Below, one piece after another: positions 46,644 through 47,501 of a stretch of 64,000 nt of DNA. The notes under the pieces are model-generated. The model was not told the DNA's origin, did no database searches, and saw only the letters and a list, made by a program, of their open reading frames with translations. The position numbers and the translations under genes were made by a program. Source of the stretch: Parahoeflea alexandrii (GTDB taxonomy: Bacteria > Pseudomonadota > Alphaproteobacteria > Rhizobiales > Rhizobiaceae); assembly GCF_024105735.1 (NCBI RefSeq), contig NZ_JAAAML010000002.1:310001-374000 (forward strand). The letters are read 5' to 3'. Within the stretch, counting starts at the first letter, position 1; the number at the start of each line of letters is the position of its first letter.

Positions 46644-47114
46644 ATGAAACCCGATTCGCCCTTCAGATGTCTGCTTGCGCTGGTCACAGCTTTGCTGTGC
46701 AACCCGGTCACGCTGACCAGTGCCGCCGATGGCCAATGGCGCAGCGTTGCCGGACCGGTTGCCGCAAGGATCGTCAGAATCATCGATGGTGACACGCTCG
46801 AGGTCGAAGCCCATCCCTGGCCAGGTCACTCGGTGCGCGTCTCGGTGCGCTTGCGTGGCATCGACACCCCCGAACGCCGTTCACAATGCGCTGACCAGCG
46901 TGCCGCCGCCCGATTGGCACGCAATGAGCTCGAACGCCTGGTGAGAGACTTTCCGACAGTTGAGCTGATCAATGTTTCCGGCGGCAAATATTACGGCAGG
47001 GTGCTGGCCGACATGAAGGCGGGAACCCGCGACGTCGCGGCGGCCATGCTGGCAAGCGGGCTCGCCCGCCCCTACGACGGTGGCAAACGCCACAAGCCGC
47101 AATGTGCCGGATAG
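46644..47114 (+). CDS. Exported thermonuclease (SNase-like) protein
   Basis: A 156-residue nuclease-fold protein. A signal peptide (about 1-28) precedes the SNase domain with AARIVRIIDGDTLEVE, the catalytic Arg/Asp region VSVRLRGIDTPERRSQC and GGKYYGRVLADMKAG holding the later catalytic Arg. A C-terminal GLARPYDGGKRHKPQC follows. Staphylococcal nuclease-type enzymes degrade DNA and RNA with calcium. It is on the same strand as the SDHAF4-like gene 48 bases away. Confidence 0.88.
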   Translation: MKPDSPFRCLLALVTALLCNPVTLTSAADGQWRSVAGPVAARIVRIIDGDTLEVEAHPWPGHSVRVSVRLRGIDTPERRSQCADQRAAARLARNELERLVRDFPTVELINVSGGKYYGRVLADMKAGTRDVAAAMLASGLARPYDGGKRHKPQCAG

Positions 47115-47151: not shown

Positions 47152-47181
47152 TCAAAAAGGCCACCCGCAAGGGGTGGCCTT
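47152..47181 (-). terminator. Rho-independent terminator of the small-ORF transcript
   Basis: On the minus strand AAGGCCACCC and GGGTGGCCTT pair around a five-base loop and run into TTTTTGAT. It is 78 bases after the small ORF stop. It could also end the nuclease transcript from the other side, though the T-run is only on the minus side. Confidence 0.75.
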
Positions 47182-47258
47182 CGTGAATTCCAGCGCCGGT
47201 CGGACGCCTGCCCGATCACATCACCGATGGATCAGGACTTGCCAGTATCACCGGCTCT

Positions 47259-47324
47259 TCAGAGGCTGCTCCGAAGTCCGGCAATCCGAATCGTACGAAC
47301 CGGCTTTTGGGAATCACTCGACAT
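47259..47324 (-). CDS. 21-residue small ORF with extended Shine-Dalgarno
   Basis: On the minus strand ATG at 47324 opens a 21-codon frame ending TGA at 47259, product MSSDSQKPVRTIRIAGLRSSL written here in parts: MSSDSQKPVR then TIRIAGLRSSL. It is basic (five Arg/Lys) with no membrane segment. Directly upstream is AAAGGAGGTGATCC (47326-47339), the full complement of the 16S rRNA 3' tail, one base before the ATG. A terminator follows. It could be a small protein, a leader peptide or part of a dual-function sRNA. I recognise no family. Confidence 0.45.
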   Translation of the reverse strand: MSSDSQKPVRTIRIAGLRSSL

Positions 47325-47474
47325 CGGATCACCTCCTTTCAATTGTTAAAGACACTGACAATGTGGGGCAAACAACGCTGCTTGCCAAGGACCCCGGTCA
47401 AATTAATTGCACCCGGCAAGAGCGCGCCCATTCCGGATCGGGACAGCCTTGAGGCATTGAGAAAGCAACAAAGA

Positions 47475-47501
47475 ACCCGCCCCGGAACATCCGGAGCGGG
47501 T
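47475..47501 (-). terminator. Probable terminator of acs
   Basis: On the minus strand ACCCGCTCCGG pairs with CCGGGGCGGGT (one G-T) around a five-base loop, followed by TCTTTGTT. It is 48 bases past the acs stop and separates acs from the small-ORF unit. Confidence 0.65.

Follow-up and report, generated by a model that had tools for sequence, protein, structure and literature searches.

A conserved structured small RNA gene of Alphaproteobacteria with a complement of the 16S rRNA 3′ tail before a short reading frame

Layout of the locus on the minus strand

The window, that is, the whole 64,000-nucleotide stretch of Parahoeflea alexandrii DNA that was analysed, carries a small element on its minus strand beyond the end of acs, which encodes an acetate-CoA ligase (NCBIfam match). 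Its parts, in window positions, are as follows.

47383..47388, minus: -35-like element TTGGCA of a predicted promoter, read by eye and predicted for the genus only
47360..47365, minus: -10-like element CACATT, read by eye, at a spacing of 17 nt from the -35-like one
47153..47355, minus: predicted small RNA of ~200 nt, from the promoter-like element and the terminator (MH_s33, discussed below, has 215 nt)
47326..47340, minus: 5′ arm GAAAGGAGGTGATCC, complement of the 16S rRNA 3′ tail
47339-47326, minus: AAAGGAGGTGATCC, exact, with a G at 47325
47322..47324, minus: start codon ATG (ATG, GTG or TTG in relatives)
47259..47324, minus: 21-codon reading frame with its stop (47261-47259), peptide MSSDSQKPVRTIRIAGLRSSL
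47310..47317, minus: 5′ strand of helix P1, GTGATTCC, codons 3-5, formed in the minimum free energy (MFE) fold of the window RNA
47280..47288, minus: CGGATTGCC, a possible partner of GGTGATCCG in the arm, with which it would form 9 pairs, two G-U among them
47257..47276, minus: hairpin P2, CTTCGGAG-CAGC-CTCTGAAG, with the stop codon within its 3′ arm
47183..47191, minus: 3′ strand of P1, GGAATTCAC, with one bulged T, just before the terminator
47154..47181, minus: intrinsic terminator, AAGGCCACCC-loop-GGGTGGCCTT (stem 47181-47158), then a T run

A reading made from the sequence alone had proposed a complement of the 16S tail, one further base, and then an ATG opening a 21-codon frame; this arrangement was borne out at 47340-47259. 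The 21-residue peptide is basic, as had been noted, and 77-78 nt separate the stop from the terminator. The sequence-only reading also placed the element with no other gene nearby, which holds only in part: 225 nt separate the end of acs (47550) from the ATG, and on the other side a convergent frame stops at 47114, ∼40 nt past the T run of the terminator. This convergent frame (46644-47114, plus strand) has 156 codons and a possible signal peptide; NCBIfam gave nothing for it at E 1e-5. A terminator of 13 pairs (47502-47474, minus strand) follows acs and sets it apart from the small RNA gene. Transcription would start near 47354, judging from the position of the -10-like element. TTG[GC] was seen by eye at about -35 distance in all 17 genus loci listed, and a loose regular expression for a sigma-70-like promoter matched 30 of 139 class-wide loci; the sigma-70 promoter scan reported no such site on this strand. 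Taken with the terminator, the layout supports the earlier proposal of a small, independent transcription unit, which is predicted here.

With its short frame, its hairpins and its terminator the element also resembles an attenuator, in which a leader peptide would control a downstream gene. In the window, however, the next gene downstream is convergent, so that the leader suggested earlier is not supported at this locus. Across loci the nearest downstream frames lie 75 times on the opposite strand and 50 times on the same strand and are mostly unrelated. We consider a leader highly improbable, and rejected the attenuator, since there is no conserved downstream gene. The flanking genes as a whole are likewise mostly unrelated from locus to locus, with 156 singletons and largest clusters of 15 and 14.

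The 16S-complementary arm and its distribution

The 16S tail was taken from a sister genome (L293), the window's own 16S gene having not been found in the assembly. The L293 gene, of the same genus, reads ...CGGCTGGATCACCTCCTTTCTAAGG and ends CGGCTGGATCACCTCCTTTCT. Against this tail the arm GAAAGGAGGTGATCC can be drawn with 15 Watson-Crick pairs, and pairing extends through a G-U at the following base (47325). The exact 14-mer AAAGGAGGTGATCC occurs once in the window, and allowing up to 2 mismatches gives 2 matches, against 0.43 expected in shuffled sequences. The string AAGGAGGTGATC is found three times in the whole genome; the other two copies have no comparable ATG after them and look gene-internal. 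A fragment or antisense copy of the 16S gene was rejected as an origin of the element: it has no similarity to 16S beyond the tail, its sequence diverging from the 16S antisense immediately past the arm (L227, below, serves as the comparison), and Rfam finds no rRNA in the window.

BLAST with the locus gave matches in 31 of 61 related genomes, including all 18 of the genus. Conservation in close relatives, on which the sequence-only reading had hung its proposal, is thus established, and the complement of the 16S tail is the most strongly conserved part. No match was obtained when the locus was compared with plasmids by BLAST. Further out, within the order, a strict pattern found the element in 59 of 297 genomes. 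Scanning named genomes by pattern returned at least 118 stretches, most of the 80 titles listed being alphaproteobacterial. An exact pattern, applied across the phylum, matched 77 of 397 genomes, 74 of 161 inside the class and 3 of 236 outside it (hand count); those 3 matches are the start of an ordinary oxidoreductase-like gene. Several contigs titled Gammaproteobacteria, Betaproteobacteria, Deltaproteobacteria or Klebsiella carry the pattern (L092, L100, L117, L119, L132, L133, L163 and others), and several of them carry the whole element. Because the pattern gave no true copy in the 236 genomes outside the class, these may be mislabelled metagenome bins.

Two covariance models were then run on genomes within the class. 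The first, R1, matched 148 of 387 genomes at E 0.01, a count that takes in at least one 16S antisense (L227); many of its weak matches proved, once read, to be real relatives. The second, R2, which includes P1, matched 111 of 389 genomes at E 0.001; one locus was found in 108 of the 111 and two in 3, a copy count obtained by scoring a small number of candidates (8 or 10) in each genome. A terminator was found in 138 of 166 loci. A strong Shine-Dalgarno (SD) sequence could also have arisen by chance before a random frame, and short frames are indeed common, but presence in 18 of 18 genus genomes, wide occurrence in the class and covarying helices refute this explanation, to which we give next to no chance.

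The arm itself is invariant or nearly so in two alignments described below (A2 and A3). The base that follows it is nearly always a purine in the 130 aligned sequences (A 54, G 37, C 3 and T 1 in the 95-row set), which fits pairing with the U before GGATC in 16S. Departures from the arm were met in 10 of the 70 loci L179-L248, 6 by GGUGGUCC, 2 by GGUGACCC and 2 by deletion. Six loci (L205, L206, L210, L219, L237 and L245) have GGAGGUGGUCC in place of GGAGGUGAUCC; pairing with the common 16S tail would survive this change through a G-U pair. The GGUGACCC variant was met in L190 and L191, and the deletion in L229 and L231. An extra A within the arm (GAAAGGAAGGTGATCC) was seen in L235, a relative from the same family, and an insertion of this kind may be why the strict patterns miss genus g45.

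Covarying helices and the reading frame

For the structural analysis, 240 loci with frames restricted to 12-40 codons were assembled; 203 of them have a terminator, 138 are non-redundant and 130 have a terminator 95-165 nt from the start. All 130 eligible sequences were aligned in A3. Many loci had been retrieved with patterns that fix ATGTC, and the conservation of those letters there is by construction.

The first helix, P1, covaries; one of its strands lies in codons 3-5 and the other immediately ahead of the terminator. Its strands pair as GUGAG/CUCAC, GUGAU/AUCAC, GUAUUA/UAAUAC, CAUUGUC/GACAAUG, CACCAAA/UUUGGUG and others across loci. In the 130 sequences of A3, 73.8% of cells are paired, against 58.9% in shuffled alignments, and covariation is 0.470 against 0.215 (reached in 0 of 500 shuffles); controls slid along the alignment gave 0.08-0.15. 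Double changes occur in 8 of 8 pairs. All four core pairs are formed in 109 of 130 rows, and fewer than three in 6 rows, some of these through misalignment. At the outermost pair 112 of the 130 rows are unpaired; for the two innermost pairs the numbers are 51 and 55. In A2, a hand-picked set of 95 of the 130 rows from which several poor fits were left out, covariation was 0.497 against 0.229; model R2 was built on these 95 rows. In the window, P1 is formed by GTGATTCC and GGAATTCAC with one bulge and is present in the full-length MFE fold.

The second helix, P2, is a covarying hairpin near the stop codon with a CARY loop 52-61 nt past the start. In 49 sequences, alignment A1 having been drawn from loci that have the motif at this distance, 86.5% of cells are paired against 70.0% in shuffled alignments, and covariation is 0.597 against 0.283 (0 of 500 shuffles; slid controls 0.09-0.25). 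The loop is strongly conserved, and its motif was found in 109 of 139 loci, a few times at wrong places. P2 does not align in relatives whose frame begins VSH. The sequence-only reading had named conserved stems as what would speak for a small RNA, and on this point the outcome is positive, P1 and P2 both covarying. We conclude that it is near certain that the locus is a conserved structured RNA gene.

A further pairing, of CGGATTGCC with GGTGATCCG in the arm, forms when the first 150 nt are folded alone, where the window gives z -2.7, and is missing when the MFE fold is computed at full length. As a general feature, an internal anti-SD switch was not seen in 138 loci (mean z -0.28, with 16% below -1.5), and such a switch is at most a feature of some lineages.

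The frame was analysed in loci that had been gathered in different ways. In L179-L248, fetched by model matches that do not require a start codon, ATG, GTG or TTG follows the arm in 69 of 70 loci; the remaining one, L227, is the antisense of a 16S gene. In a set of 139 non-redundant loci for which length was no criterion, frame 0 always ends after 18-35 codons, against 22% and 6% for frames 1 and 2. The 138 of 138 obtained in the set restricted to 12-40 codons is partly by construction and is not relied on. The stop mostly lies shortly past the P2 loop; in L083, L115 and L124 it comes before the loop. In L209 and L225 the arm and start open a longer frame of at least 40 codons beginning MSHGA, and one of the two genomes concerned, G685, also has a second, short copy of VSHC type (compare L226).

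The NTG start and the narrow range of frame lengths are also what a small-protein gene would have, in which the 21-residue peptide is the product and the strong SD secures its synthesis. Within the genus, pN/pS is 0.33 for the whole frame and 0.47 for codons 6-16, computed on only 10 distinct sequences, and these values allow weak or some constraint on the peptide. However, the peptides differ widely between genera, and in the Mesorhizobium-type group pN/pS for codons 6-16 reaches 1.11, against 0.82 and 0.62 in off-frame controls. Variable sites in the middle of the frame are spread evenly over the three codon positions (5/4/5 in the genus and 7/7/6 in the Mesorhizobium-type group). Frames begin MSS or VSH because P1 pairing constrains the codons there, and the P2 motif falls in all three reading phases (92, 30 and 17 of 176 loci, with 37 lacking the motif). 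The phase changes and the free variation led us to reject a small protein as the main conserved product, an option that had been left open by the sequence-only reading; a gene kept for its peptide seems quite improbable. P2 in three phases, taken with the NTG start and the narrow frame length, suggests instead that the frame is likely translated and its peptide little or not conserved.

A proposed engagement of the 30S subunit and comparison with known RNAs

Of the options raised at the outset, a small protein, a leader or an RNA that would titrate ribosomes or 16S-binding factors, the data agree best with an RNA engaging 16S. It is probable that the RNA works by engaging ribosomes. The perfect partner of the arm is the 16S tail, and the arm and the start codon lie just outside P1; a 30S subunit on the start codon would cover the 5′ strand of P1, given the size of ribosome footprints. 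These features led us to propose that the locus encodes an independently transcribed, structured small RNA on whose arm 30S subunits dock, and in which ribosome occupancy and the fold exclude each other. We give this reading a probability of about one half. Initiation would need P1 to be opened, and the short passage of the ribosome to the stop would open P2; when initiation is scarce the RNA would refold. In this way free 30S subunits would be held, reported on or competed for by the RNA, and the peptide would arise mainly as a side product while ribosomes are counted through. The open or closed RNA might then act through titration, through its stability or by exposing a pairing site. An SD duplex this long might slow initiation instead of helping it, a point against the proposal. 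The sequence, the helices and their conservation come from comparison, and from them we infer transcription at this locus, translation and the exclusion of fold by ribosome. That the Alphaproteobacteria have inherited the element as a dedicated sensor of free 30S subunits, or as a decoy for them, which recognises them by its complete complement of the 16S tail, its fold and initiation excluding each other and its tiny frame serving as a ribosome counter and not as a protein gene, is put forward tentatively and is rather unlikely.

An alternative is a dual-function small RNA that pairs with mRNAs in trans through a loop or an unpaired stretch, such as the CARY loop or the variable region, the translated frame mainly protecting the RNA or giving a minor output. 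The standalone layout with a terminator and the strong conservation of the P2 loop agree with it, and translated small RNAs are known, Pos19 of Rhodobacter being one that is described in the available part of PMC5036791. However, the most conserved stretch of the element matches 16S, and beyond the arm and the two helices the sequence varies freely. We hold a role of this kind to be unlikely.

If docking of 30S subunits on the arm is correct, many Alphaproteobacteria would carry a small RNA that addresses the small ribosomal subunit directly. A poorly described Rfam family, known mainly as a Caulobacter small RNA, would be joined to a family that is found across the class, has two helices and whose partner is clear. 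The element would also offer a natural case for the effect of a 15-pair SD duplex in bacteria where an SD is often absent; in Caulobacter, about three quarters of genes lack one, according to the excerpted text of PMC4117421.

The Rfam family is RF01867 (CC2171), a Caulobacter small RNA of unassigned function. Its model matched the window RNA over positions 1-159 of 159 with 35.1 bits (E 5e-6, in 341 bases), below the gathering cut-off of 75 bits, and found the locus genome-wide at E 1.7e-5. Among 21 relatives it matched 15 at E 0.001, with none above the cut-off, and among 14 control genomes it gave a match in Caulobacter only. L222, a locus from the same order, scores 83.9 bits, above the cut-off. 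By the rule of Rfam the window RNA is thus no member of the family, and it is better described as a relative of CC2171. Both share the order CAAC leader, AAAGGAGGTGATCC arm, RTGTC, long-range helix and terminator. The structure line of RF01867 includes a helix that, like P1 of the window RNA, links the beginning of the frame with a site immediately ahead of the terminator; P1 was counted over 130 sequences of both types. They differ in that the window has ATG instead of GTG, and AGTGA instead of CATTGTC in P1; the CARY hairpin is found on the window side, whereas VSH-type sequences lack it in the alignment.

An RNA of Mesorhizobium huakuii 7653R, MH_s33, is annotated as RF01867 and was mapped at 215 nt by RNA-seq (PMC5596092); the part of that paper available to us names it once, in a table, and gives no function for it. 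MH_s33 and the window RNA are likened through this annotation. In the Mesorhizobium loci L063 and L130 the RF01867 match falls on the element described here. For RF01867 itself, one added covarying pair is reported in the portion of PMC11701678 consulted. Schrader 2014 reports that two previously predicted Caulobacter non-coding RNAs are translated, their names not being given in the partial text of PMC4117421. Among the papers listed by the literature searches, none was seen to describe this match to the 16S tail or this helix, and searches that combined the arm sequence with small RNAs listed only papers that appear unrelated by title.

Three other systems invite comparison, each through a source available in part. 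Pos19 of Rhodobacter sphaeroides resembles the window RNA as an alphaproteobacterial small RNA (~219 nt) that ends in a terminator and has a small frame, translated in Pos19 and probably so in the window RNA; Pos19 differs in having a 50-codon frame and an SD that is not essential, and in being reported, in the text at hand, only in R. sphaeroides strains (PMC5036791). SisA-D of Caulobacter (PMC12559287) and BbsR14 of Bartonella (PMC7717549) are small RNAs that are also discussed in SD terms, but as far as these excerpts go they carry anti-SD motifs that pair with mRNAs, whereas the window RNA has an SD that would pair with 16S. In Staphylococcus aureus, extended SD sequences and STAR-linked small frames show SD pairing past the usual core and, as proposed for the window, conserved ribosome-recruiting sites before small frames; these sites belong to a Firmicute, and the excerpt of PMC13009471 describes no covarying closing helix such as P1.
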